Of a stretch of DNA of 56,259 bases, positions 3,658 through 55,647 are shown one piece after another. The notes below the pieces were generated by a model, which made no database searches, was not told where the DNA came from, and saw only the letters and a program-made list of their open reading frames with translations. How positions within the stretch are numbered: the stretch's first letter is position 1; every line of letters starts with the position of its first letter. This stretch comes from Pleurotus djamor (Eukaryota > Basidiomycota > Agaricomycetes > Agaricales > Pleurotaceae), in the NCBI GenBank assembly GCA_029747585.1, contig JAPEVF010000274.1:1-56259 (forward strand). The letters are read 5' to 3'. The translations under genes and the position numbers were made by a program.

Positions 3658-5559
3658 CTAGGAAGAGTCATCAGAGTCCGACACAAACGTGTGAAGTCTC
3701 TCATTACGGCGCGACTCAGCTCTGCGCTGTTTGGAGACGAATAACTTCTCTTTCAGCTGCTGTCGAAAGGCCTTTCCGGTCCGTAAGCGAGCGCCGCCGC
3801 CGCGGGTTGCTTGAGGTAGGGTGGTCTCTGACATGTCTGATGCCGATGACAAGCCTTCAGCGACGAAGGGATGGTCAGTAGGTGAAAGGTAACCTTCGTC
3901 ACTCTTGCGTTCTTCTTCCTCGCATTGCATAGCAAAAGAGTGGATGCCGATGCAAGCCGCGACCCAGTATGTTGCAATGATATGGCCCTCCTTGTTGTCA
4001 ACGCGAAGGCGTAGGTTCTTGAGGGAGTGAAAACGGCCCTTGAGGAACCCAATCGCATGCTCAGAACGTATGCGGAGAATAGAAACATGGTTGTTGAATA
4101 CTGTGTTCTCGGGTAGATCTCGCTCCGGACGTTTGTATGGAGCGACTACCCAAGAGCTGATCTGTATTTGTCACGATGAGGATAAAAAACGTGAAGGGGT
4201 GGGTAACCACACACCGGATATGCTGAATCAGCCCAAACCCATTCACCAGGCTGAAGGTGATCGTGTGGATTAGAGGCAAGAGCTGTACCTTCCCATGCCG
4301 TTGAGTCGTGAGTGCTACCAGTGTATCCAAATCCGAAATCAATGATGCGAAGGTTGGGGAGGGAGACAATCTGAAAATGTTGAGATGAAGATCGCACGAA
4401 AGAAGCGAAGACACACCTGAAAGTTCAATGAATACCTATTCTTTCGGTCGAAGTAGCTCTCCCCAAACCAGTGAGGACGTTCAGCGAAGGGGATAAGCGT
4501 GCCATCAACAAAGCACCACCCATCCTTCCAACCCTTGCACGAGTGGCGGCGAACCCATTGCTTGGCTTCTGCCTTCTCTTCGTCTGTGGGGAACCTCACG
4601 GCCTTCTTCATGAAATTGGGATGCAGGATGGCGGTCATAACACGTCGGGTTGCTAGTAGCACGGTGCCCTTGCCCACACCAGCCCAATTTGCGACTGACT
4701 GAAGGCTGGCCGCATTCCCATCATGTCCGAAACGATAGAGTGTGATGGCGAGCTGCTCCTCGATGGGAAGCTGTGCATTCTGGGAGTTGTTGAAGAAGAC
4801 CGCATTGGTTTCGATGGCAGCAACGATGGCATCGAACGTTTGTGGTGAGACGCGGAGCTCTTGGCGGAAATGGTCAGGGCGCGAATTTTTGAGTAATCGC
4901 AAGACGTGGTGGAGGTAAGATGGGCCGCGGGGGAAGGGGTCTCGTGGGAGCTCGTAGCGTTGAGCGTACATGTCTGAGATGTTGTGGAATACCCACATAC
5001 GAAGTCGCGCCCATCGATCAACAGGACATGGCCCCGGAAATTCTTCCCCCATTTCACTACCAGAGCCATAGCTCTCATCCGAATCCTCATCATCCGCATC
5101 ACAGTCCATCATATCAAGGTCGCTCTCGAAGTCCTTGATGATTTGAGGGTCTGAGCTGGAGCCATCGGAGGAAGAGGAGAGTAGGATGGACTGATCGATG
5201 TCGAAGTCCTCACTCAAAGAGTTGGAAATATCCGAAAAGTCACCAATATCGCGCCAATTCGTGCCCAGGATTGCGCTCCAGTCAGTGGTACTCGTTTCGG
5301 ACGAAGAAGAGGAGGGGGAAGTGCTGAAGTCATCGAAACTGGAGAGAGAAGACAGGTCGTCGTCGCTGGGGCTTGGGAACTGGAGATGCCGAAGATGCCG
5401 CAGCAAATCACGCTTACGTTGTCGAAGTCTGTGGCTTGATGCCTTGCGTGCGTTGCGATATAGACGAATGAGTTGCTTAGCCCGGGCAAGACGTCGAGGA
5501 AGGGTACCCATGGTGGCTGGGGGAAAGAGGGATATGTGCTCGTCGTTGCCGGGTCTCAT
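3658..5559 (-). CDS. PIF/Harbinger-type DDE transposase, copy B (intact, about 600 aa)
   Basis: Three exons: 5559-4417, 4370-4215 and 4161-3658. The splices are in frame and give about 600 residues. Residues 60-175 are Ser/Asp-rich low complexity. A helix-turn-helix-like stretch (LQSVANWAGVGKGTV) lies near 286-312. The DDE_4-type catalytic core follows: Asp352 in FVDGT, Asp403 in STHDSTAW and Glu467 in RSEHAIGFLKGRF. ADSAYP and VAPYKRPER are also typical of the family. The enzyme would cut and rejoin element ends. All three catalytic residues are present and no frame break is visible. The reading frames on the opposite strand here are shadows of its low-complexity region. Confidence 0.92.
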
Positions 5560-5703
5560 ACACCAAGTAACAAATAATCAACAATTCTATTATTTTATAA
5601 GTACAATCCAAAATTTGTCGGTCAGAGTACTCAGGCGATTCAGCGACGATTCAGTGGCGATTATGGCCATTGAATCGTTGATGAATCGACTACGGAATCG
5701 CCT

Positions 5704-5741
5704 CCTGAATCGGCGTTGAATCGCGCACTCTGACTGTCACT
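5704..5741 (-). repeat. Right terminal inverted repeat of the Harbinger-like element
   Basis: Read on the minus strand it begins AGTGACAGTCAGAGTGCGCG. It is the outer arm of a further 114-bp inverted structure: GTCAGAGT at 5621-5628 faces ACTCTGAC at 5727-5734, with GATTCA motifs in both orientations between them. Confidence 0.85.
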
Positions 5742-5742
5742 A

Positions 5743-8700
5743 ATGTCGCAGGAAACATCCCCATTGACGCCTACCAAACCACCCTTGGCCAGTCACCTCT
5801 CTGGTGCCTCGGCTCTCTCCAACACATCCACTGTCATCGGTGGATCTGCCACCTCTCCAACGAGTGAAACCGGCGTTCTACTCACACCACGCATGGCTGA
5901 ATCGGGGACCAAGAGGAGCACTACACCATCATTACCACCTGGAGCTGCCCAACCAGCTGCTCTACCTGGAGTCTATGGCCCCCCGGTAAGTTGAATCACT
6001 CGTTGCGCAGTGCATCATAAAGGCTAAAATTATCACAGGACTCGCCCCCAGCTGACCCCTCACAACGACTCCTCGACTCCTCATACAACTCGAACAGATC
6101 CTCTTCCAGGTATTCGCATTCCCCCTCGCATGATGAGGACGGTGGTGGTGGTGGTGTTCAATTTGCGTCTTATCCACCGATAGAGAGGACGGTTGCTTGG
6201 GATGGACCACCCAGGGTTACTGGTGCGTAACCTTTTGCCCCAATTTTGAGACCTCATCAGTGATATCCTTGTCACAGTCAGCGACGCTGAAAAGTCGTCT
6301 TCGCAACGTAGGCTAACTGAGGACGATGGTGAGACTTTTTGTGAACTCATTACGCAATAACTCATTCCTTCGCGCAGAACCTGCCTCGCGCAAAGATACA
6401 TGGGTACCTCTACCCCTGCGAACGTGGTTCTGGGTGACGTTGGTTGTTTTTTTGGCCGGANGGGGGGATCGCGTTAGAGGTTGCGCTGCATTTCAGTAAC
6501 AAAAACCAAGGTGCGTCTTGCCCACAGCCCGTCGTTTCATGCTCACCCTTGGCTCGGGACGTAGGATGGTCGACCAATGGCGACATAACCGATTCACAAA
6601 CGGTCATGCATTACGTTTACGTGGGTAGCATCTTTCTTTCAACATTGCCCACCTGACCTTTCGATTCGTCTCTACAGACACTCCCACCCGTCGCTGTCGC
6701 TGCATTCGTAAGTACCTCTTGATGCTCGTTGGACATGGGTCTTACACGCGCGGGCGCTTAGCTGGTGGCAATGTGGACATGGACGGACATCGAGATCAAG
6801 AAGATGCAACCTTATGTCGACCTGGTTCAAGGAGATTCGCCGCCACAGCGGAGCTTGCTTTTGGACTACACGCGGCATAAGTGAGTGCGCCCCCTCCCTA
6901 ATTAATCCTCGCAGAGGTATTCACACTCGCACACAGCAACTTCATCGTCTGGGCCCACGCTGTCGGGAATAAACATTACCTCGTGATGATCACCTCGTTC
7001 ATGGTGTTATTGTCCTTGACATTCCAACCCTTGTCCGCTGCGCTGTTGGTTGTGAGGGATGTTTGGTACACATCTGATCGTACGTCCTTTTCACTGTCAC
7101 TCATTGCCCATGTTACTAAGTTTTACCGCCCTCTCAGCTACTCCCGTTAACAACCTCGCCCTCCTTGGTCTCAATCAAAACGATGCGTTTGGGAATTTGA
7201 CTAGTGAGTTTATATCAAGCGTTGATGACATGAGCTAAACTAGATGATAGCATTCGTTTCTGCGGCTGGGTACGCGTCTGCCTCGGTCTTGTATAGTCTA
7301 GGCGATGCACCCTTCACCTCTGGGCCCTATACGATTGGTGAATTCGATGTACGTGTCTGCTTCTTTCTTCTTTCCCGTCCCTTCCTTCATCCCATCTTTC
7401 CAACGTTCTCACTCAGTCTATTTATGCCCTTCTAGATCCCCACTGACCTTGTCACCAACGGCACTGTCGTCACCAACACAACTGCCGTCAAAACTGATGC
7501 GGGATGCCGCCCTATCAACATCCAAATGTCTCAAAATACAGATGGTTCGGGCTGGACGAATTCAGTGAACAGCAATGGGTGCACCTTCACTTGGTCGGTG
7601 GATCGCAATGCTACAGTTTTGTTTGGCTCGGATATCCCAGACTGTGGTCAACCTCCCGATCAACAGATGTTCGCGCCTGTCATCTTCTGGTTCTTTACGT
7701 GCGTTGTCAATCTACCATGTCAACCCCGATGAAGATGGAGCTGACTGAGTTTGGGTCAACTTTTGTAGTTATCAACCTAGCGCTGCGGCATCTGGAACCA
7801 TTTGCTCCCCGACGTTTTCGTTATTCGATGTTGCCGTTAGCGTCGACGTCGCCTCAAGGAATCTCAGCCAAGTAACGGAACTCCGGCCGTTCTCGACTTC
7901 ATCCAATTTCTCTGAATTTGCGGGAAATCTCACTGGCGCGCCGCTCAATGGCAGAGCCTATAATGGAATAGGATTCCAGCTCATCAACCCCGACCGGTAA
8001 GGCCACTCGAACTTTTTCTGTTCTGCTTTCACTGATATCCGATATCTCGTCCCCCAGCTTTGTGATAGACCGTCAGTCTTCGGTCCGACTTCAAATGCCT
8101 TCAGCAGTTCTACAAGCAGCTGCTCAGAGTCCGGCTGGGCTCGCTGGTTCTTTCGCGGCTGACCGATTCGTCGCGTTATCTACCCAAGTTTATGTTTGTC
8201 ATCTCCTTCTGAATGTCGGCTCCCCTGTTCATCTCGTTCGTTCATAGACTACGTACCTCAAGCTCATCGCCAGGGAAGTTTACTTCATCCGGGGCCCCAA
8301 TGACAGACGACCCATCGACATCCTAGTCAAGAAATGGGTCAAGAGGCTCTTCCTCAGGTAAGGAGTCCTATTCTCTGACGTACCTCTTTTAGATTTCTGA
8401 CGCCTTTTCCTTTCTTTACTTAGCGATGTTGCTGTGCATCTTCTCGCGACATTCTTGTTCCTTCTTGCCACCCTCAGTACCATCATCCAAATATGGCATC
8501 GCTTCGCGCGTCGTAATCTGCGTCTCCTTCACGAACCCGGTACCATTGCCTCCGCTGTATCCATCGGTGCACAAACAAACGCCGGTGCCCTCCTCGCTGG
8601 CCGTCAACGCGAGAAAGATATCAACGACGTACTGCGCGGGAAGAAGTTCCGTATCGATCCTCTGACGATGAAGATTGTCATGGAGGGTGAGGAAGGATAT

Positions 8701-42015: not shown

Positions 42016-43729
42016 ATGTTTGCGCCACTTCGCTCCCTCTTTGAAGACAGTGAAGAGTATCAACGAAGGAAAGATAGGCCCTTTGTACCTTCAAAGGCCA
42101 GTCGTAATGGCCTTCAAAATGGTATCTTATTCAATCCATCCCAATAGGTTTCATTGGCGCAGATACGCGCTGCAGTCCCAAAACATCTTCATCAAAAGTC
42201 GACATGGAGGAGCCTGGGCTACGTTTTGAGGGACGTTGCTTTTGCGACTCTCCTTTGGCATCTAGCGACGAGGATTGACTCCCTCTGTGGGGTTTATATC
42301 CCGAGTAGCCCTTCCTATGCCCTCAGCTTGCTCAATCCACTTCTGAGATGGGGGCTGTGGCTTTGTTATTGGGTTTGCCAGGGCATCGTCCTGACGGGTT
42401 TATGGATTCTTGGTATGACCTTCGTTTGTATTTTAGAATTCAACTCTAATGATTGGACAGCGCATGACGCGGGACATGGGTCACTTTCAGATTACGCATG
42501 GTTCAACCATATCATCGGGTTCATACTCCACACCGTGAGCCCGGTTTTCCCATAGAAAGTCTCGTCTTCAGCTCTCATTGTAGATATCCTTCGTTAGGCC
42601 CTGCTCGTCCCGTACTATTCCTGGCGGTCGACACATCGCGCACATCACGTCCGTCCTTCTCACCTTCCCGGTCTTTTCTTGACCCCCCGCCTGACAATTC
42701 ATCAGAAAGCTACAGCATCCATGGAACGAGATGAAAACTATATCCCGAGGACCAGAACAGATCTAGGTCTTCTTCCCTCTGTTGACTATCAAGAAATATT
42801 CGAAGAAGCCCCACTCTATACCCTACTGCGGATGTTGCTCATGCAGATATTTGGCCTGCACACGTATCTCTCCACGAACATCTTGGGCTCGTCGCGCCAT
42901 CCCAAAGGTGCCAACGTAAGGATATCACGTCCAAGCACATCCACTTGAGCTCACTCGCATCTTAGCATTTCAAGCCTTACGGCGGTCTTTTCAAATCGAA
43001 TGAATACCGCGACATTATTATATCTGATATTGGACTTCTGATCATGCTGCTTTCAATTCAACACATCATCACACGAGTCGGTTACGACTTCGTGAAAATT
43101 TTCCTTGTTCCATGGATGGTCCGTGTTCTTCTTGCCGTAGCATGCCAATTCTTGACTTCGGTTCGCACAGATGACCAACCACTGTGGGTCCAATGCTTCC
43201 TCCAAACGTGCATCTTAATGATCGTGGACTCAAGGGATCGTGATGTTGACATTCCTCCATCATTCTGACCCAACGGTGCCCTATTATCGAGGGAACGAGT
43301 GGACCTTTCTCCGTGGAGCTATTTCAACTGTTGACCGTCCCTTGCTGGGTTGGGCGGGACGATTCTTCCTTCACAACATCAGCCATGATCACATCAGTCA
43401 CCATCTCTTCTCATCGATTCCGTTCTGTAGGTTCTTTCCCTCCTTCCGAGGCAGATAAATGAACAAGTCACTTCCAGATAACTTGCCAGAAGTGACCGAA
43501 CATGTCAAGGCTGTATTAGGGGAAGACTATAATTATGATCCTACGGTGAGCTGAATCTCGAACGTTTGCACCCAAAAGCCTTGATCTCATTGCCCCTCGA
43601 AAGAATTCATTCAGGGCTCTTTACCGCACATTTACCCAGTGCTGCTTTGTTGAAGATGAAGGAGATATAGTCTTCTACAAAAACAGACAAGGGAAGGCAG
43701 CGCGTGTCTTGGGCCCTCGATCAACATAG
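42016..43729 (+). CDS. Delta-12-type fatty acid desaturase paralog J3 (406 aa)
   Basis: Starts MFAPLRSLFEDSEEY; the first intron begins after KDRPF. All exons thread in frame to the stop at 43729. Box one is HDAGH (near residue 113), box two HRAHH (near 149) and box three HISHH (near 331). Other family segments are IRAAVPKHLHQKSTW, SMERDENYIPRTRTD, IVMLTFLHHSDPTVPYYR and CFVEDEGDIVFYKN. It differs clearly from J1 and J2: HDAGH instead of HECGH, and a FLHHSDP/HISHH subtype instead of YLQHTxP/HVVHH. It may have another regiospecificity or substrate; that part is inference. It is an ER membrane enzyme by family. Confidence 0.88.
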
Positions 43730-43976
43730 GAGCTCCCCTTTACGACCCCCCTCGACCTCATGCTTGATGTGTGTATCTGACCAGTATACTCTGTAGTCCA
43801 AGCATGTAGTCGCTGTCCTCCTTCGCTAGAGAATTTATGTACCTCTCCTTCTGGACAACATCTGGCGTGCCATGAGGAAGCACCCAGCCCCATCAATTAT
43901 TACCACTTTTCGAAGATCGGAGTCATCAACGATATAGAGCCGTTGAAAACAAGTTGAAAACCGCGAGGGACTTAAG
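43730..43976. other. Desaturase J3 3' flank up to the MITE-like element
   Basis: Nothing recognised besides the 3' end of J3. Confidence 0.4.
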
Positions 43977-44449: not shown

Positions 44450-44667
44450 TAGTACCTTACCCCACTGACAGTGAAGGGCTTAAACCACTGCAATAGACCC
44501 AGTAAGGCCCCGGCGATAGGTGCCCCTGTTAGCGCACCAAAGCTAGCGACGTCGCTAGCAAAATATAGTGTCGTGAATTCGTGAATACTCGTGGCTTCTC
44601 CAAGGGACTGGCATGATTGAGTACGGGAAAAAGGAATACGATACCACGGTGCCGCCAGTTGAAACAC
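44450..44667 (-). pseudogene. Relic of a monocarboxylate-type MFS transporter gene
   Basis: The minus-strand frame carries FASDVASFGALTGAPIAGAL followed by a helix and FTVSG. This aligns with TGFGALIGTPIDGALLG and VFSG near the end of the intact transporter at 17732-19561. After FTVSG comes GTAAGGTA, the same intron donor position as in the intact gene, and then the MITE-like element. The following exon is not found downstream, and no upstream helices are recognisable. It is therefore a fragment rather than a working gene. Confidence 0.65.
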
Positions 44668-45000
44668 AGCACCGTATTTGCTGAGAGCCGCATGGCTTGC
44701 TAAATGATTACTGTGGAATGAGACTCCGCTACCCGCGAGGAAAGAGCGTCGGCGATTCGAAGTGAAAGTGAGGCCCGGAGTGACTATACTATATGGGTTG
44801 TCCTTCTAGGCAGCTGTCGGGGATGCGTATTTCCAGCCGCAGATGGGTTCATGAGCAATCCACTGAGTAATGGTATCGGCCATCGACGGTGATAAACTAG
44901 TTGTATTCCATGAGTGTTTCTTCAAAGTACTTGACCCGTTTACGCTCCAGGATGTGGAACTCTCGGAGGCGCGTTCAGTTCTGAAACATATAATTCATAT
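44668..45000. other. Intergenic remainder beside the MFS relic
   Basis: Possibly decayed MFS sequence, but I recognise no motif in it. Confidence 0.4.
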
Positions 45001-46536
45001 CTATGAGGTTTGAACACTGTTAGAGTCCGGTGAACATATCTCGAATTGCACAGCGCTTTCCACGATGATATCGCCGTGACCACTTCCATCCTGACGCTTT
45101 GCAAGTGTTGATAGGGGCAACGGGGTCTTCTCCTGTGTTCGCTTGCCCCAAAACTTCCAAGCATCGAAGAGGTCCTAGAGATAGCCCAAGTTTATTAAGG
45201 ACATAGGAGATGTGCTAGTCATAGTACTCACGCCCTGAGTCCCGAAGATTAAAGCCGCTCCGACGGGGACTAACACGGAAAAGTGTATCAGTAGATGAAA
45301 GAAACATGGGTCTAGTGGGGAACGCACGTAGGCCGACGGCAAGCGTCAACAAATCATCACCTATTCCAGAAAGACCCGCCGATATTCGTATAAAGGAGAA
45401 TCTATCCAAGAGGTGAGATTAAGGAACGTAAAAGCAGCGAAAGCGTGCTTACACCAGGCCAAGGGTTGGTAATACAGAGAAGATGCCATATCGAATTAGC
45501 ATTTTTCGCATCCCAAGAGCGCGCACACGCCCAAGGTTTCGGAAAGCCGCCCAATGCCTTCGTAAGTAGAGGGCTGTCGATACTACAAACTCGATCAACG
45601 TTGTGCCATAATTACTCAGGGGAATCTGAAATGTACCGTAGAAACTGAGTGCAACAACGATGGTGATTATTACCACCGCGGCAGTGATAATGGACCTACG
45701 AGTGATGAGATCACAGTCAGATCAAGAGTATCAGAATGGGGTGTGTGGGTGTCACCAACGGGATGCGAGCTTTTAGATGGCAAAACATGTGTGTCGTGTC
45801 GCGTTCGACGATAGATTTATCCGCTAACCCGAACTAGAAGGGGGTTAGGCGAACAGAGAGAATATGCAAGACCCATCATAACTCACGGCGAGAACTTCTA
45901 CGCAGATTAACAGATGGAAAATGTAAGGCATAATTAGGAGCTATCACGGAACTTAGATTGGCATCATCTTTGGAAACAACGCGGGAACAAACCAGGTATT
46001 CAGTCCGAGTTGATGGATGTCTTGCCGACGTTGCACCTGTGACAATACGCCACATCTGATGAAGTTGGGTATGGGGGAGCTGATATCCTGATCTGGAGCA
46101 AGTACATACCTCAATGGAAAAAGACAGACCAGCTGTTACGGTCCTATTGAGTCACTGGATAAGCGAGGATGACGCCAGACGGGCTAGTGAATGGACATAC
46201 ACAACAGGAGCAGCGTAGACAAGCATGGATTGGAATAAACATACACCAAAGCTCGGTGGTGTATCCAGTTGGTAGCCCACGATGAAGAGGTAGGATATAC
46301 AGGACAGCATCCACGTGAGAAGGAAGTTGTACCAAGCAGAGGTGCGGCGAATGGATCGAGATAGCCGCGCGGTAATAACTATGACGGCGAGGAGGAAGAG
46401 CCCCAGAAATTGGATCACGTTGAAAAGAACGACCAAAGGGACGATGGGGTCCCCTTCGAACCCAAAGGAATTGAGAAGTAGATTGGACTGAAAGTTCGAA
46501 AAGGCTTACGTTGACCCGGGTCTGCAGAGCCAGTCA
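45001..46536 (-). CDS. Seven-pass membrane protein, GPCR-like
   Basis: Starts MTGSADP (46536). Exons give VLFNVIQFLGLFLLAVIVI (helix 1), SAWYNFLLTWMLSCISYLFI (helix 2) and CLFQSMLVYAAPVV (helix 3), a short exon TVTAGLSFSIE, then SIITAAVVIITIVVALSFYG, LRRHWAAFRNLGRVRALGMR, a helix, and VGAALIFGTQGDLFDAWKFW near the end. The late FGTQxD...W motif before a cytosolic tail is common in Agaricomycete seven-pass proteins annotated as receptor-like. It belongs to neither the DUF6533 nor the DUF6534 type. Ligand and partner are unknown. Exons in the middle (45700-46140) are the least certain. Confidence 0.65.
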
Positions 46537-47329
46537 TAACGCAATGTGATAGATAGGAGAGTGAATGTGCGAAGAGCACAGCTCGACGAGAAGTGGGGGG
46601 TGAACAAGAGATGGTTTCGGCCTAACAGGTATACAGTCCCTTTTAATGGGAGGGCTCGAGGTTCGATCATCTTTGATTGTTTAGGAATATCAGATCTCAG
46701 ATGTTCGACGAACAAACCTTACTATGGGGATGCGGATTAAGCCACCGTAAGCTAACCGAATTCCCCAATGTCCTTGATTTTCGTCGTATGCGCGAGGTGT
46801 GTTTATGACAGGCTTCAGTACTACATAGCAGAAACCTTGAAATCGGCATTGGACCAGGCAAAGAAGGATGTAGTTCACTTGTTGTAGGAGCTTGGTAGGA
46901 GCGCCTCGGCGTCCAAATTTCGAGTCCCGAATCCAGGGGCTTTAGAGTAGGAGACAGGAGCGTTGAGACGTCAGAATTTTGATGCGGGACCATGCGAAGA
47001 GCAAGCATCAAGCCGTGGGCCCAGTGTCTTATCATTGCATACTCCGCATAAGAAGAACAACGAATACGGAGTGTAGAGATGGAAGGCATCGGTTGGGATG
47101 GCGATGCTGCGCAACAATTGGTACGAACAAGAGAACTTCAGACATTTTTTTGATAAACACTATTGGAAGAACGGAGGTCGACAGATTAAGGACAAAGCGC
47201 TCTAGCTACTGGTGATTCTCCCCAGAGAACACTCTGACTGGATTTTGAGTATCTATGTTCCGGGAGTGGGTTAGCATCCGAGAAGGCCAGGGATAAGTTG
47301 AGTAGATTTTATGGATCGTGTTGACTGAC
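46537..47329. other. Intergenic region between the GPCR-like gene and peptide P1
   Basis: Several open frames of up to 130 codons overlap on both strands, none with a signal peptide or domain. It should contain the promoter of the GPCR-like gene. Confidence 0.45.
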
Positions 47330-47704
47330 CTAGCACCACCCTCCAACACCGAAAATTACAGGAACACAGGTTCTTCCTTGGCAGCAGGGGATGGCGCCTT
47401 TGATATAAGAGGGTTGACAAGATTTCCCTTTTGGAATGCAACGATCGAAGTCGGTCGTGAGCGCGACGTTGAATTCATTCTTGGTGGTCGGGAATGGGGC
47501 AGGGATATCCTTGCCTAGAAGATAGAGTACATGACATCAATGCTCAATAATGTGACGGCGATGTAGAAAGCGCAAGGAAGGTTACACACCGACGGGGTAC
47601 GCAAAGGGAAGTATGCGGTCGACGGCGCCTGAGTCCTCGCAGGTGGTGGACGACACGATGGCGGCGAGCGTAGAGAGAGAAACGAGAGAAACAGCGAGCT
47701 TCAT
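47330..47704 (-). CDS. Secreted six-cysteine knottin-like peptide precursor P1 (99 aa)
   Basis: Two exons, 47704-47590 and 47514-47330, total 300 nt. The signal peptide is MKLAVSLVSLSTLAAIVSS. A pro-region contains DRILPFAYPVG, and the intron falls directly after it (phase 1). The C-terminal domain runs from CIPKGKSC to VIFGVGGWC. Its cysteines follow C-x6-C-x10-CC-x4-C-x10-C, the C-C-CC-C-C framework of inhibitor cystine knots. No Kex2-type KR site was seen before the domain. The same architecture occurs in P2 at 51600. Function is unknown: defence, signalling or enzyme inhibition are all possible. Two UstYa-like genes lie directly upstream on the same strand. Confidence 0.82.
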
Positions 47705-48109
47705 CGTTATGAGAGTGAGTTCAGATGGTGAGGTTAATGTTGCAAGAAGGGTGTTGAACGCCTTGAGATCGAAGGTTGGCGAAATGGAAGCGCCCTTTAT
47801 ACGAATCCTTTGAGAGCTGACGTCGTTGACTTGGAGGTAGTTGACATCATCGGATGATCGCATGGAATCAAGAACTATGAGCCCGAACACTGAGGGTGGC
47901 TGGTGAAGGGATCGCGGATCCGGTATGAGCATAACGGCGGAGAACACACCTCTTACTTATCCACATGCACACTTGCATTGAATTGTTTCGAAGCTTCAGC
48001 GATCCTCGGGCGGGAAGGGTATACATTTGCGATATTTCGGTCCTGGTAAAACGTGCTCGATGGGAACAATCTTTTCCTCTTCCTGGGCGACTGACATTGA
48101 CTGTATTGG
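47705..48109. other. Promoter region of peptide P1
   Basis: This 405-bp stretch lies between the P1 start and the end of the UstYa-like gene on the same strand. Apart from the TATA box, nothing recognised. Confidence 0.5.
47796..47801 (-). promoter_or_regulatory. TATA box of peptide gene P1
   Basis: TATAAA on the minus strand, about 92 bp before the ATG, within CGTATAAAGGGC. Peptide gene P2 has the same CGTATAAAG core at a similar distance. Confidence 0.6.
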
Positions 48110-49232
48110 CTAATTCATCGTCGACATCGATGTAGTTCTTGAATCAGAACTTCCCGTCGCCACTACACCCGGAGCCCTCGATCCCGACCATTCCCTCAGC
48201 TTCTCAAAGTTTCGACACATCCTTTTCTGGTTGAATCGAGGTCGGAGGTTTGGACGTGCATCCTTGTGCTTCTTCGAGCCCTCATCGACATCCAAGAACC
48301 AAGACACCACGCTGATGTCGGCAGAGCACATCACTGATTGGCGGAGGATGTCAATGCAATGTGCGACATGTTCATCTTCTGGGAAGTACGTGACGCCGTT
48401 TGGGACGNTTTTTGGTTGGTCGCGATGGGCGGGGAACACTGCGCATGTGGTGATGGTGATGATTGGTTTTGTAGCGTTCCGGCTCGAGGTGATGACGAAC
48501 GTAGTCCTGAACGCGTTCAAGAAGATGAGTCCAGGAAAAGCCGCGACCATGGTGGACAGGGATGTCAACGTACTAAGCAATGCAATTGATGGAAGACATC
48601 TAAGCCACCATACAGTTGAGAACGGTTTCCCAAAAACGGGATGGTGGGGTCAGCAAGGCGATTATTTTCCTCCTCAATCAAGGCGACTATAGCATCTGGA
48701 GAACACCAAGCGAGCTAACAGGCACCAATGGCTGGCAAAACATCGAGGACACTTACATTTCTGAGTGTCATACAGGTCGGACCATGCCTGGTCCATGATA
48801 ACCGTAGACGGGCCATCGAATGCAGACAGCTGCTCTTCGTCAAGAAATCCAGTATGGAAACGGATCTGCTCGTATTCAAGTAGAGATTCTGCAGGTGCTG
48901 TTTAGTAAAAGGTGAGGAAAATGAGTCGTCTGGGCAGACTAGACGATGGGAAAAGTCGTCGTACTGTACAGCAGCTCGCGAAAGACTTCAGGTACAGGTG
49001 CGTGGGTGAGCAACGCCTGGGTCATCGCAATGCTGGTAACCAGCAGGAAGAGGATTCCCGCTAGATAGAACATCGGAGACAGGATGGTGGCTTCACTGCG
49101 ATCGATGGGCTCATGCCACCGGGTATCTTCGTGGTCAGCGTCAGGTGGAAGAGCGTCAAAGCCATGCTCAACGAGTTCGATGGATTGAGTACTAGCAGGT
49201 TCCGCAAAGCATCGCCTAATAGTTTTGAACAT
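48110..49232 (-). CDS. UstYa-like (DUF3328) oxidase M1
   Basis: Starts MFKTIRRCFAEPASTQ. One membrane helix (FYLAGILFLLVTSIAM) lies near residues 55-75. The luminal part has the family order: PAESLLEYEQIRFHTGF, VIMDQAWSDLY, DVFHQLHCLDYVRHHLEP, HVAHCIDILRQSVMCSADIS and MCRNFEKLREW. Both HxxHC motifs are present (HQLHC and HVAHC). UstYa-family proteins are copper-type oxidases that cyclise, hydroxylate or crosslink ribosomal peptides in ustiloxin, asperipin and related pathways. The substrate here is inferred to be a nearby peptide. An N at 48408 beside a T run falls in coding sequence, in the linker between the motifs. Confidence 0.87.
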
Positions 49233-49612
49233 GGTAGTGACGGGGCAGCGTCTTCAAGCGTTCAAGTTGAGGGACGGGGTGGTTGCGAGAAATTCCAGCT
49301 TGGGAGAGCTGAGACCACATTACCATTACTTCGTTCCGTAGACCACGTCATCGTCATCGTCGGCGTCGGCGAGGGCACCGAGACCGAGCTTCTTGTCAAT
49401 CCAATCCTGAGAGTTCGTCGACTCTACGGTGATGAACATAGAACAGTCCTCAGACTGGTGAGAGGCTGATCAATCGTAGAGTAGATCATGTAGTAGAGGA
49501 TGATAGGAATTTTCAGAACTCCGGAGAAGCTGACTCTCATTCTGGGAAGTAATTCAATACAGAGTGCATATCATGATCGCAATTGAATGACAGGAACCTA
49601 CGTAATGCGACC
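49233..49612. other. Intergenic region between the two UstYa-like genes
   Basis: Both genes are on the minus strand. It should contain the promoter of M1; nothing else recognised. Confidence 0.5.
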
Positions 49613-50477
49613 TCATTCATGCCAAATTGAACCGATGCGTCGCTCAAACGCCCATGCCCTGATCTTCTCGAAATTCCTGCATGTGTGCAATTGGTCGAAC
49701 CGGTGAAATGGATGCCCGTCATCGAGGTTGTAAAACGTGTTCACGCTCACGTCCGCAGAACACATCAACGACTGCCGGACACTATTAACGCAATGCCTGA
49801 GCTGCACCTCACGACTCATCGGCATGATGCCACCATGGTAGATGCCTTGCGCGGAGCTATTGTATCGATGAGGGTACGCCGACATACGAATCATATCCTG
49901 TCCGGAAAATTAGTTGGGCATCATGGCATATTGACTACGTACACACCAAGCAGCGAAGTTGATGAAATACGTCCAATTCACCGATATACACATTCGTTCC
50001 GGGAACGAGGACGGTTGGGTCAATCAACTGACGGGCCTCCTGGGGTAGGAGATACGAGACGCTATCTGTCAGAAACATCTTCCTTGGTAAGTATAGAGGC
50101 ATTGTACACGGTTATTGTAGCAACTCGCCTTTATACAGTTCAAGCCAAGCAGCATCCATCGCATCGGTGGGGGGGCCTTGAAAGACCGTCTGGGGTTCGT
50201 TGAGAAAACCGGTGTTGAACCGTTTGATCTCATACTCGACGACACGCTCGGCGGGGGCTTGAGGAAAACGCCAAGGTCATTCTTCTGTGATGTGAAGTAG
50301 AGAGACCGGGAACTCACAGTATATTGGACTCGAGGATGCCTTCATGACCCGTGCCCGGAAGAGCATGAATATCAAGAGGGTGTTGATGATGCAAAGTAGT
50401 CGAAAGGCAATCCGTTCGTAGTGGATTATCTGTGCCCTACGAGAGCGGTTGGGAATCCCCGCAGAGATTCTCATCAT
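49613..50477 (-). CDS. UstYa-like (DUF3328) protein M2 with degenerate histidine motifs
   Basis: Starts MMRISAGIPNRSRRAQ; a second ATG follows immediately. One membrane helix (LLCIINTLLIFMLF) lies near residues 28-42. Family segments are PAERVVEYEIKRFNTGFLN, MDAAWLELYK, LDVFHQLRCLDMIRM, RHCVNSVRQSLMCSADVSV and TCRNFEKIRAW. Where M1 has HQLHC and HVAHC, this copy reads HQLRC and QLRHC, so one histidine is replaced in each motif. It may be inactive alone, act as a partner of M1, or bind peptide. The splice after LYK uses a GC donor (GCGAGT). The frame is otherwise open. Confidence 0.83.
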
Positions 50478-51599
50478 CGAACCGACAAAGGATGGGGCTG
50501 GGGGGTTGGGGGTTGATGTTGAGGCCTGAGGCTTTGAAGGTCAGACGGGACGCGTGAAGTTTGAGGATGGAGCGCGAGGCCAGGTGTTGTTCCAGCTTCT
50601 GGCGCCCGTGATACGGCTTCTTTCAGAATCTCAAGAAGAGGATGGCGGCGCGAAAGTCACATTAGGAATTGCTCGGTGGGCCAGCGTGCCAGGACATGGC
50701 GTTGGAGCCTGGAGGGCGCGATCAGCGTGATGTAAGTATCATAAGGACCTAAGGTAGACGATCATGATGATGATGGGTGAAATGTGGGGTCGACTTCGCA
50801 GGTTCCATACCATGTTTGAGGTAATTCTGAGAAGGCCGTACAAGGAAGATGGTGGCCTGTTTGTGTGGTGGCGTTCTGAGAATTGGTTGAGATGCTGGGT
50901 TCAACTCCGCGGCGTCGCCTACTCAAGCGCCCAACAGAACCTCCAGGACCAACACCGATAGACGCAGGCTGATGGACCCTTCTGTTCATCCTGAAGCTTC
51001 CCCACCGACTGAAAGTCTCCGCACAATCCAATCTCACATATTTTCACAGTGGCTTTTTGACGCACTCAAAATTGTACAAGGCTATTGCGTGTGCCTACTA
51101 GTACTACAGAGCCAGTCTGTCACTGAGATCGTTCGAGCATAGCGGAGCGGCCATCGGTCAACTCTCGAGTTTTGGTAAAAAGTATGATCATCATTGTTTC
51201 AGGACAAAGAAGATTCAGGAGAGATTTCTATCCGCATGGGACGAATCAACCAACAAGTCTTACCATCGCCCCGATTCTCGAATGACAACATCTCATCCTA
51301 AAAAATAGGAAATGATCTCATACGGTTCCGACGCTCAAACGCTTGGTCTTTTTCGTGTCTGTCTTGTCATTCCGCAGTTATACTAGGACCGGATCCGCGA
51401 TTCCTTCGTTTTTCTTCAGGAACTTCCGCTCATCGTTCAGGCTCGGGATCTCTATTCACCACCGAAGTCCCTCATGGCCAGCCCAGCTCAGTGCCCTTCG
51501 CTCGGGGAGCTTGGACGCGTATAAAGAGCCTCCGCATCTTGGCAAGGCTGCCCTCCAACGCAGCAAAGTAGTCCCTTCAACTCGTCTAAACACCTCACC
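50478..51599. other. Divergent intergenic region between UstYa-like M2 and peptide P2
   Basis: 1.1 kb with no recognisable gene. It should hold the promoters of M2 and P2. Confidence 0.5.
51520..51525 (+). promoter_or_regulatory. TATA box of peptide gene P2
   Basis: TATAAA about 75-80 bp before the ATG, within GCGTATAAAGAGCC. It matches the core found upstream of P1. Confidence 0.6.
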
Positions 51600-52010
51600 A
51601 TGAAATTCGTTTCTTCCTTTTTCGTCCTCTCTGCACTCGCAATGATGGCTTTGTCCTCCAACTGTGACAACTCAGACGCCGCGTCATCCCCTCCAGCCAA
51701 CCCCCAAGACCGTCTATTGCCCTTTGCATATCCAATTGGTGGGTCTAACCTCTTCAAGTAGCCTTATCGCGACTTTTCATTGACTAACATGTCGCCAGGC
51801 GAGAAGGAGCCCATGAATGTGGATGAAGTCCCGGGTACTTCAGGAAATTCAATCGCCCACATCTTCAAGGCTACGTTCGAAGACCCGGATAGAGCGGGCT
51901 GCATTCCACATGGGCGCTCTTGCGGTGGCTGGGGACCTGGAACAAAACGCTGCTGCAAGCCGTACTCTTGCTACGCGATCATTTTTGGTGCGGGTGGTTG
52001 GTGCTGGTAG
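51600..52010 (+). CDS. Secreted six-cysteine knottin-like peptide precursor P2 (116 aa)
   Basis: Two exons, 51600-51738 and 51799-52010, total 351 nt. The signal peptide is MKFVSSFFVLSALAMMALSS. The pro-region carries DRLLPFAYPIG, after which a phase-1 intron falls exactly as in P1. The C-terminal domain runs from CIPHGRSC to GAGGWCW, with cysteines spaced C-x6-C-x9-CC-x4-C-x10-C. The last 37 residues are rich in Gly and aromatics. Shared features with P1 are the LPFAYP[VI]G pro-motif, the C-I-P-x-G-x-S-C start and the IFG[VA]GGWC end. Outside these the sequences differ widely, which suggests old or fast divergence. Function is unknown. Confidence 0.85.
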
Positions 52011-52764
52011 ATTAGGTGGGTGATATACAACCGAAGAGCTGGAATCCATTGCTGAAGATATTGACAAAGCTTTACAGATCGTTGCACCAAGCCTTTGAGC
52101 TTAAGCCGCATCCGTCACCACAGCCCCTTCCCTTCCATGCATTCATCAATTCAGACCTTTCGTCCTTTTTTTTCGTGTTCTTTACCCCCTTTCCCCCTTC
52201 CCCCCAAGCTGTCATTTATCGTCGCTCGTTCTGATTCTCACCCTTGGTACGCTACTTCAGCACCCCAGCCAACAAACTTGGTATCATCATTCATTTACCC
52301 CAAAGTGTCTCCAATGTCAAAATCAAAATCCACCTCGTACTTTTCCCAATGGACTGGCAGTGTAGAGAGAGTATCCTACTTGTATTCTCCTGTCCTCCAA
52401 AAATTGCGACTCGGTTTTGATCTTTGAAAAGCCGCCGACCGTTTCCAGGACCAATCAAATGCAAGGAGCCTCAGTAGGTGTCTACATATACAGCGCAGGA
52501 TGGATGGAAACATCCGTAATGTCGAGGCGAATCACACTCTTGAAGAGGAATCGATCGACAGATTTGCCCAACTTCGTAAGTAATATCAACCACGTATGGG
52601 GCCTGCCCTCTCGCCATAAATTAGATGCAATCATCAAATCTAACGTAGATAACGCGACGTCAACGCGACGTGCCACCCCCAAGCCATCCCTTGAGGCTTC
52701 GATGTTTAAAGTGCAGGCATGCTTCCCCTGGTACCCCTTGATTCTCCTATCCTTGAGGATGATT
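52011..52764. other. Intergenic region downstream of P2
   Basis: It contains pyrimidine-rich tracts (about 52120-52230) and no recognised gene. The 171-codon frame at 52417 runs antisense into the end of the DUF6533 gene and is a shadow. Confidence 0.5.
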
Positions 52765-54463
52765 TTAAGCATTCAGAATCGTCGACGAGATGTCACTCTT
52801 CCAGGAAAAGGCAGAGAAGCCCGTTGTGTTCGCGTTTCTATTGGGCATTCTTGGCGCGAATTGGATGGGTGCATCGATGGCTCTGGTGGTCAGCGTGTCG
52901 CCATGAAGCTTGGTCACGGATTTATCGCGTAGATTGAGCATGAGCCGCGAAATCAAAGTCGATGCGAGTCTGTGGAGAGATGCGCCCATTACTGTGTTTT
53001 TCGTCACGCTAGGATAGATCTTTAAAGCGTACATGTTGATTATATCGGTTAGCAAAGCCTTCAAGGCGGGCTAAGGCAAGATCAATCAATCAGGGAAGGG
53101 ACCATTCAAATGTAGGACCCACAGGCCCTAGCTGCCGTTCAAAGTGAGAAAGCTCAAGTCCCCCTGTGGTAATACTACTCACCAAGAGCATCAGTATATT
53201 TGCAAAGTTTGTGATAAAGAGCACTCTGAGAGAAAGGGGATTCATTCAGCCTTGTGAACACTAATTTAGCGAAGCGTCCATACCCAAAGTAGACAGCACC
53301 TAATATCGGGGAGGTATTCTGTCATCAGGATACGTTATACGTGCCTTACGGGAGTGACCTACCATCGCGTATTAACGCTGACCACAACGTGAAGCTATCT
53401 GGGAAGTCACGTAAAAGGATCAGAGTTTTCCTCAAAGTCAGGGAGAAAACCGTAAAATCCAGAAGGAACAGTCCCGCCCAATTTCCCGCCAACTCTGAGC
53501 GCATTGGTCAGAGAGACGCGTTTGGTTACACATTGTACTCACGATTCCCTCTATTCAGGAGGAAGATAAATGACGTCCTCTTGAGTTTATGCCATCAGCA
53601 AAAATTACATCACTCACTGAGAGTGGTTGTATACGTTGATGCATAGGCTTTCTTGTGCGTGGAGCTTGTTTGATTTGTCCATAATTGTCCAGAGTACCTA
53701 CGAAAGGTAGATACGTGGTCAGCTGCGTAGGGCGAATAGAACCACATGGGTAGGTCCTACAGCTCCGTGAATGATCATGCTAAAGATTAAGCCAGAAAGG
53801 CATACGGTGACTCGGCGATTATAGGCATATAATGCTGAAGTTCGAATCACCAATATCACTGTACTGCCATGAGAAGCTTGAGGAGAAGGCTGAAATGATT
53901 GACAACCGTACCTGCGATGACCGTATGTGCGTATGCAAGACGAAAGTTGGCGAATACCCTATGGTATATGTAACAACCGCGGGGATGTTAGGGTAAAACT
54001 TCGCTAGTCACGCCTGGTAGCACACTCACCTCTACGAGTTCATCGCGAGGGAGAAGGTTGAGTTAGTTGGATGTATTAGAGAAAGGAAAGGGACATACAT
54101 TGCCGGGAAGGAGGAAGTCTGGTCTCAGTAACATAACGACGGTCGGGACGTATCCTAGGAGGACACCGTAGCGGTTTACAAAGAACAGTATTGGAACAAG
54201 AGAGAGCTTGGGCCTCCTCCAGAAACGTTCGACCTCAAGGTCAAAGGTCAAAAGGTAGTCGTAGAATAATATCGCTGTCGATCATGGTCAGGTCGTTTGT
54301 AAAAAGTGAGAAACACTATTAGTTTTTACCCAGAGATATGACTTCAACGTAGTTTTGGATAGTCCTGGACGGATGTCTTCAATGAAGGAAAAATAGGTTG
54401 ACTTCATCACACCTACACCTGAAGTAAAACCGCAGAGCCAGCATCACTGAAGTCGAAAGGCAT
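52765..54463 (-). CDS. DUF6533 seven-pass membrane protein (paralog K)
   Basis: Starts MPFDFSDAGSAVLLQ, then TIQNYVEVISLAILFYDYLL, TFDLEVERFWRRPKLSL, ILFFVNRYGVLLGYVPTVVM, FANFRLAYAHTVIA, ILVIRTSALYAYNRRVTVCL and LHRLASTLISRLMLNLRDKS. It ends ISSTILNA at 52765. The exon order matches the two DUF6533 genes at 31.6-36.3 kb, but the sequence is more distant. It adjoins peptide gene P2. Function is unknown; about seven helices are expected. Small middle exons were not all placed with certainty. Confidence 0.75.
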
Positions 54464-55647
54464 GGCGATGTTGTGGGACTACGAGACACATTGTCCACAC
54501 CCATGCTTCCCCGTTTTATAAGAACGAAAACAAGGAGGAACCCAATGTACATGGATATCGACAAGGGGATTAGTCCTTGTCTTGCGCTGAAGCCCATGGA
54601 ACATGCTCCCTTTGCTTTGATAGATCCATTGACATCAATGCAGGATGGGCGTCACCCAGGCGTTGTCCGAGACATAGCTCGCGGGCGGCGACTGAGTCAA
54701 CCGCTGGAGCACCGGTTTGATGATTTGACAACGCTTGACCACGAGCCCAGGTCAATCTCGAACCATAGGTTTGTCCGCCAAGCTGATGTGTGCAGTTCCG
54801 ACCAGAAGCATAAGCGAGCCGTTGTAGCATTGGGAGTGTTTGGTCAAATGAGGGTTCGTAGGAGTCGGAGCAAGGCTCCTGGCCATGTGAGGCAGGCCGA
54901 CGGAGGGACCACCGATACCGAGTCTGTGGGGTGGAATTCGAGCGTCCTACTCATTGAAGTGTCTCTAAAGCGACTCATTGGGAGTGACAAGATCGTGATA
55001 CTTATAGGGCTCGGAAGTTGCTCGTGGGTTCCGATCGGGAGGCGGGGGCGCTTCTTGAGCGCTTCACCTCAGGACGTCGCACTTATGTCTCTCCGAGCCT
55101 TCGACTGAGTATTACTTCCTGGTACGCTACTGCAGTATCCTGGCCCGTTGACTCGGTATAAAATCGTGAAACTCTGCAGACGCAAGTACCTGGAAGAGCG
55201 TGATTCCCCAAGATACAATAAAAATACAACGATAAAGGCTCTATAAAGGCTACACAACCTCNTCAAAGNNTCTCTCTATANANCCCGNTCAGCCCTTACA
55301 GCCTCAATAACTGCGTCAACTTTTTTCAGGCGAGCTCGAGCATTCGCTTTCCGTGTCGGAGACAGTTTCCAAGGAACTTTCCTAATAGCATTTCAGTTTT
55401 GGCGACAAGGAAGAAAGAATCTCCTAGTAGCATACCATAGCAAGCCCCCGTGGTTTACATGTGATGGTCTGAACGCGCCAAACATGAATGAACGTCGCGA
55501 AGAGGAGGATGAGATGAAGAACGTTCCGGCAGGACCGTGAGCGCTTTGAGGAGACTCCCACAAGCACAAACAAACACTTCCTCGACCGACCCTTCCAACA
55601 ACGTCGTCCACTCCGAATCGCATTTCTCTCCACGCATCGCTTCGAGC
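54464..55647. other. Divergent intergenic region with clustered N bases
   Basis: An unspliced 211-codon frame (54473-55108, plus) has no recognisable domain. Several N bases lie between about 55262 and 55290. The promoters of paralog K and of the splicing factor gene should be here. Confidence 0.45.

Follow-up and report, generated by a model that had tools for sequence, protein, structure and literature searches.

A UstYa gene pair flanked by knottin-like peptide genes in Pleurotus djamor: possible replacement of a repeat precursor

The 56,259-bp contig JAPEVF010000274.1 of Pleurotus djamor (assembly GCA_029747585.1), analysed over its whole length as the window and called C612 among the contigs of this genome, carries two small genes for cysteine-rich peptides (peptides 1 and 2) that flank two UstYa-like (DUF3328) genes, oxidases A and B. 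Tentatively, the locus is read as a UstYa pair-plus-precursor module in which the repeat precursor has been replaced by a knottin-like peptide gene, whose product both oxidases would modify. Such a substrate swap is favoured because peptide 1 stands in the precursor slot, the peptide family is confined to the module, oxidase A has been retained and oxidase B is intact. As peptide 1 holds the slot where sister modules carry a repeated-core precursor, a knotted and oxidised peptide would be the likely product. An explanation by ordinary peptides with disulfides only, weighed below, was rated equal to substrate replacement.

Paralogous modules and the precursor slot

At least 37 exon matches to the UstYa family PF11807 were found on 18 contigs of the genome, and stretches around those on the 17 contigs other than C612 were retrieved; 12 loci and 19 UstYa genes remained once apparent alleles had been merged (allelism was aligned for C612/C926 and C453/C340, and taken from near-identity for the others). 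A and B have their nearest relatives in adjacent pairs of an A-like and a B-like gene, one on C685, where the two lie on opposite strands, and one on C453/C340. In both modules, a Kex2-repeat precursor with a signal comes after B on the same strand, with nine FFYT[DH]Y cores on C685; the precursors on C453 and C340 have a single FFYKY core besides four LVYIY cores. The gap between B and the precursor is 555 bp on C685 and 712 bp on both C453, whose copy of B has an ambiguous base, and C340. On C612, the gene that comes after B, 405 bp away and in the same orientation, is that of peptide 1, which occupies the slot after B on C926, the other haplotype, as well. A signal exon and a phase-1 intron are present in all four precursor types, a common layout that is no proof of descent. 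Neither a repeat precursor nor a relic of one was detected at 45000-54500 of the window, where tblastn with two sister precursors reached no better than E 0.82.

The functional link between peptides and oxidases that a preliminary description of this locus had proposed from their closeness is still putative but rests on more than proximity, since the sister A/B pairs carry repeat precursors at the position of peptide 1. Its tyrosine-crosslink version is weakened, as the sole tyrosine shared by the two peptides lies in the pro-motif and A is without two of the four conserved histidines.

A tree of 77 rows was built from 11 rows of this genome, assembled from exon pieces, and 66 of 100 homologues (P0003-P0071 minus P0004, which is C685A, and the incomplete P0006 and P0007; P0072-P0102 were excluded). 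In it, C612A joins a clade of A genes that also holds two Pleurotus homologues (99/99), and C612B, represented by its C926 copy, joins the B genes (100/99). Among the three modules, branches are longest for the C612 pair, with 0.62 for A (0.19 and 0.24 for the other A genes) and 0.73 for B (0.24 and 0.12 for the other B genes).

The arrangement resembles that of the dikaritins (ustiloxin, phomopsin and asperipin-2a type), whose clusters are recognised by a UstYa gene near a precursor gene with a predicted signal: a UstYa pair stands beside such a precursor here too, and the paralogous modules have repeat precursors. It differs in that the precursor on C612 is one six-cysteine domain without repeats or flanking Kex2 sites. 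Kex2-repeat precursors (KEPs) adjoining DUF3328 genes are rarer in Basidiomycota (103/1680) than in Ascomycota (1647/5372; PMC7329392). In P. ostreatus, 6 of the 16 UstYa-like genes are expressed during development (PMC8893723), and knottin-like effectors and dikaritin precursors of a scab fungus were handled as separate groups (PMC9632046). In the open-licence literature searched, neither a knottin-type substrate of a UstYa enzyme nor a heterodimer of DUF3328 proteins was found described.

Peptides, oxidases and a possible pathway

Peptide 1 (99 aa) is encoded on the minus strand by two exons. The first (47590..47704), also present with changes in the C926 allele, comprises the signal and the start of the pro-region and ends with LPFAYPVG at a phase-1 intron, and the second (47330..47514, stop included) comprises the remaining pro-region and the six-cysteine domain (about 47440-47333). 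Peptide 2 (116 aa; 100% identical to the nr protein ONZ45_g9476) has the same organisation on the plus strand, with a signal and pro-region exon (51600..51738) ending with LPFAYPIG at a phase-1 intron and a second exon (51799..52010, stop included) carrying the rest of the pro-region and the six-cysteine domain (about 51900-52004). Peptide 1 lies 405 bp from B, as noted above, and peptide 2 about 1.1 kb from A. The claim that these are two paralogous, predicted secreted peptides with a C-C-CC-C-C framework was borne out by the exon models, by 43% identity between them and by the spacing of their six C-terminal cysteines (C-x6-C-x9/10-CC-x4-C-x10-C in both). One extra cysteine lies near the signal in each, and the signal-like starts were called with our own heuristic, not with SignalP. 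The pro-region island DR[IL]LPFAYP[VI]G is kept in both, with the phase-1 intron directly after it.

The finders for secreted cysteine-rich genes were nonspecific, the stricter one giving 5 models per 220 kb compared to 3 on reversed sequence and the looser one 15 rows compared to 5, so the peptide gene models are trusted on account of the paralogy and the allele and not of the finder output. A looser form of the cysteine framework had three matches in six frames of the 19 loci scanned for it (peptide 1, peptide 2 and the peptide 1 allele), against a mean of 0.0 in 50 base shuffles. Consistent with the earlier statement that the precursors hold no repeated cores, no repeats and no flanking Kex2 sites were found: a dibasic site is missing from peptide 1, the single one of peptide 2 falls within the cysteine domain, and neither shows the three or more repeats between Kex2 sites that define a KEP in PMC7329392.

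In its own genome, the one fungal genome that the searches covered, the peptide family was found on C612 and on C926 only. A match on C640 (E 0.17) was read as chance, its surroundings having neither a signal nor the six-cysteine frame. The pattern PFAYP[VI]G with up to two mismatches had 66 matches, equalling the number in the backward control; the two one-mismatch matches beyond the three peptide genes were translated, and neither shows a signal or a cysteine region.

Both peptides show the knottin cysteine order C-C-CC-C-C with knottin loop sizes, and they look like inhibitor cystine knot peptides such as AAI (1clv), agelenin (2e2s) and tachystatin A (1cix), from which they differ in lacking a significant match, in their fungal LPFAYPxG pro-region and in the position of their genes beside UstYa oxidases. 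Weak matches were those of peptide 2 to Toxin_7 (E 0.0022, 18.6 bits, under the cut-off of 27) and of peptide 1 to Tachystatin_A (E 0.14), besides matches to the alpha-amylase inhibitor AAI (E 0.086) and to agelenin (E 0.51).

The two DUF3328/UstYa-like genes reported between the peptides were confirmed, as both A (about 49613..50477, minus strand, approximately four exons) and B (about 48110..49232, minus strand) score far above the PF11807 cut-off of 25 bits, with 142.3 and 136.4 bits respectively. B was scored on the letters of C926, because the window copy is thrown out of frame by an ambiguous N at 48408, whereas the C926 allele, which lacks it, reads through. Each protein has one N-terminal hydrophobic stretch. 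In B, both HxxHC motifs are intact (HQLHC and HVAHC; four histidines, two cysteines). In A, they read HQLRC and QLRHC on both haplotypes, one histidine being lost from each, so that two of the four conserved histidines are gone.

These two losses tend to occur together. In an alignment of 101 rows beside A (100 homologues and B), both motifs were resolved in 99 and intact in 90. Arginine stands at the fourth place of motif 1 in four of the 99, and the first histidine of motif 2 is missing in all four of these compared to 4 of the 95 others (p = 1.9e-5), which corresponds to about two events, as three of the four arginine-bearing homologues form one clade. The remaining histidine pair is near-invariant (101/101 and 100/101). 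Among the 18 genes of this genome that were tested, five lack the motif 1 histidine, and the motif 2 histidine is also missing in four of them but in none of the 13 others (p = 0.0016); the exception, on C511, has lost further positions too. C815/C818, the nineteenth, fits the joint-loss pattern when read by eye across its intron. If the motif helices are antiparallel, as we infer, joint loss would abolish just one of the two copper sites, making A a half-site protein. Candidate half-site genes are C612 A, C751, C900/C158, C1088 and C815/C818; they often lie beside an intact UstYa gene, half-site and full-site genes adjoining each other on C751 and C900/C158.

CctR, a copper-dependent DUF3328 hydroxylase, is a homodimer of the lumen in which four coplanar histidines of the HxxHC motifs bind two coppers in each monomer (PMC12435403). 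Both C612 oxidases share with it the single N-terminal hydrophobic stretch, and B also the pattern HxxHC(x)nHxxHC with all four histidines and both cysteines. A departs from this two-copper homodimer in that it would retain one histidine pair.

Should the substrate have been replaced, peptides 1 and 2 would acquire three disulfides after entering the endoplasmic reticulum, and their pro-region would be removed, perhaps by cleavage at the conserved DR steps. A and B would be membrane-anchored with lumenal copper domains, as in their relative CctR, and would meet the peptides in the secretory pathway. With a full two-copper site in B and the histidine pair of one copper in A, the two would act as a heterodimer. 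The product would be a disulfide-knotted peptide carrying an oxidation, either a hydroxyl or a side-chain crosslink; the most plausible places for it are the conserved IFGxGGWC tail and the pro-motif LPFAYPxG. Enzymes of the kind that serve repeat precursors would now serve a folded cysteine peptide on the same secretory route. It is more doubtful that the module represents a new ribosomal peptide class, defined by a UstYa module with a folded, single-domain cystine-knot substrate in place of repeated linear cores, a full-site/half-site DUF3328 heterodimer and a disulfide knot combined with a crosslink or hydroxylation. If true, UstYa-type copper oxidases accept folded, disulfide-rich substrates, fungal ribosomal peptides extend past Kex2-repeat precursors, and genome mining that requires repeats misses a class; a defined pair of half-site A and full-site B would also be at hand for asking why UstYa genes often occur in twos. 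Substrate replacement is directly testable, as one genome holds two repeat-precursor modules and one knottin-like module.

Haplotype comparison and rival explanations

Three contigs match adjoining parts of the window: C935 aligns to 42635-43950 and 44456-46689 (98-99%), C926:79-3778 to 50390-46689 (94.8%), and C1170 to 52289-53410 and 53490-54998 (91-96%). They are read as the second haplotype, in which repeats have been inserted where C935 and C926 meet. C926 was accordingly counted as an allele, and the idea that it is a second, independently duplicated module was rejected. Between the haplotypes, exons 2-4 of oxidase A differ by 19 synonymous and 9 nonsynonymous changes; with pN/pS at about 0.13, A is under purifying selection and not visibly decaying. 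Oxidase B shows few changes. In peptide 1, the cysteine domain has 0 nonsynonymous and 1 synonymous change in 36 codons, and the signal and pro-region have 6 and 5 respectively in 63 codons, all of these being small numbers.

Several observations weigh against oxidation of the peptides by A and B. The loss of two motif histidines in A has to be set beside CctR, whose activity is abolished when a histidine or cysteine is changed to alanine (PMC12435403). The sole tyrosine common to both peptides sits in LPFAYP[VI]G, outside the cysteine domain, and in the C926 allele of peptide 1 this pro-motif reads MLPLAYPVG (I31M and F34L, PFAYP becoming PLAYP). Peptide 2 was not found on the second haplotype, where its place corresponds to an assembly gap between C926 and C1170, the latter ending at its match to the window. 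The promoter element shared by the peptide genes, described below, was absent near A and B in a window scan allowing up to three mismatches. For the putative knottin fold, no significant match of the peptides to a knottin family or structure was obtained. Among approximately 5.8 billion proteins, the peptides had no relatives, the sole match being peptide 2 itself; conservation of the link with the oxidases thus could not be followed across species, and the association rests on one locus in two haplotypes. Genes of such small size are often missed by annotators, so this absence from the protein database is weak evidence of absence elsewhere.

In the explanation held equal to substrate replacement, the peptides would be secreted knottin-like peptides of an ordinary kind, serving in defence or as inhibitors and carrying disulfides only. 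The UstYa pair would be a leftover of a module whose repeat precursor was lost, or serve something else, and its position next to the peptide genes would mean nothing biochemically. This explanation fits the missing histidines of A and the weak likeness to unmodified knottins (Toxin_7 below its cut-off, AAI and agelenin). Between haplotypes, moreover, no part of peptide 1 is better conserved than its cysteine domain, which would suit a peptide with an activity of its own. Other cysteine-rich secreted genes near the UstYa genes of C685 come from a dispersed family, so that such neighbours can be there by chance. Against it stand the purifying selection on A, the few changes in B, the precursor slot held by peptide 1 on both haplotypes and a peptide family found at no other place in the genome.

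Two further possibilities concern the substrate. The oxidases might act on the pro-segment [IL]LPFAYP[VI]G as a single core, cut at DR and at a following basic site, with the cysteine domain as a separate product or a follower. The strong conservation of DR[IL]LPFAYP[VI]G between peptides that are only 43% identical overall, and the shared tyrosine within it, are consistent with this, and a single-core dikaritin precursor has been raised as one possibility for lichen clusters (PMC12048977). It is nevertheless considered improbable, since the C926 allele alters F34L and I31M and leaves the cysteine domain unchanged, no dibasic Kex2 site flanks the segment, and the motif spans an intron. Alternatively, the C612 oxidases might act in trans, on repeat precursors encoded by the sister modules (C685 and C453), with the adjoining peptides unrelated; this would agree with how closely the A and B enzymes are related across the three modules. 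It appears very improbable, as both sister modules possess an A and a B of their own and have shorter branches than the C612 pair.

Promoter element and further observations

A 20-bp element, ACCGGATCCGCGATYCCTTC, stands in the same orientation before both peptide genes, as ACCGGATCCGCGATCCCTTC at 47905..47924 on the minus strand, starting at -220 of peptide 1, and as ACCGGATCCGCGATTCCTTC at 51388..51407 on the plus strand, starting at -212 of peptide 2. Scanning the 55.9-Mb assembly with up to two mismatches returned three matches, all in peptide promoters (including that of the peptide 1 allele), compared to one match for the backward-pattern control. The element may point to co-regulation, or it may have survived from the duplication that yielded both peptides.

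Within the module, the stop of oxidase B differs between haplotypes (window 48110; L016:2467), the C926 reading being about 38 codons longer. Between A and B, at 49439-49329 on the minus strand, a 37-codon open reading frame has an acidic DDDDD tail; the C926 version has no ATG and contains an internal stop. Near the contig start, positions 1-1621 and 4132-5751 form a direct repeat of 1.6 kb with 99.9% identity, possibly an assembly artefact.

A likeness to MSDIN/amatoxin (RxLP...P.VG) was set aside, because the peptides begin with signal-like sequences and an MSDIN leader is missing; no search was aimed at MSDIN. Near the C685 UstYa pair, two cysteine-rich secreted proteins ending with CWTCC are encoded at L018:1414 (minus strand) and L018:2348 (plus strand). 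They were considered as a replicate of the peptide-oxidase association and dropped as support, because the family is scattered over the genome with no tie to UstYa contigs: when one of the two served as query (E up to 1), seven further contigs matched, some weakly, none of which is among the 18 UstYa contigs.

At a third locus, C815 (L030:1480-2742, minus strand), a Gly/Tyr-rich protein with KR repeats lies near a single half-site UstYa gene and is likely a further repeat precursor. Beside the half-site/full-site UstYa pair of C900 (L025:2951-3340, with an allele in L028, C158), an 8-cysteine predicted secreted peptide was found, which requires a three-exon model and whose allele has an ambiguous N and a cysteine-to-tyrosine change. 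In this genome, it occurs at the C900/C158 locus only, plus a weak match on C245, and it may be a second case of a cysteine-rich peptide beside such a pair.

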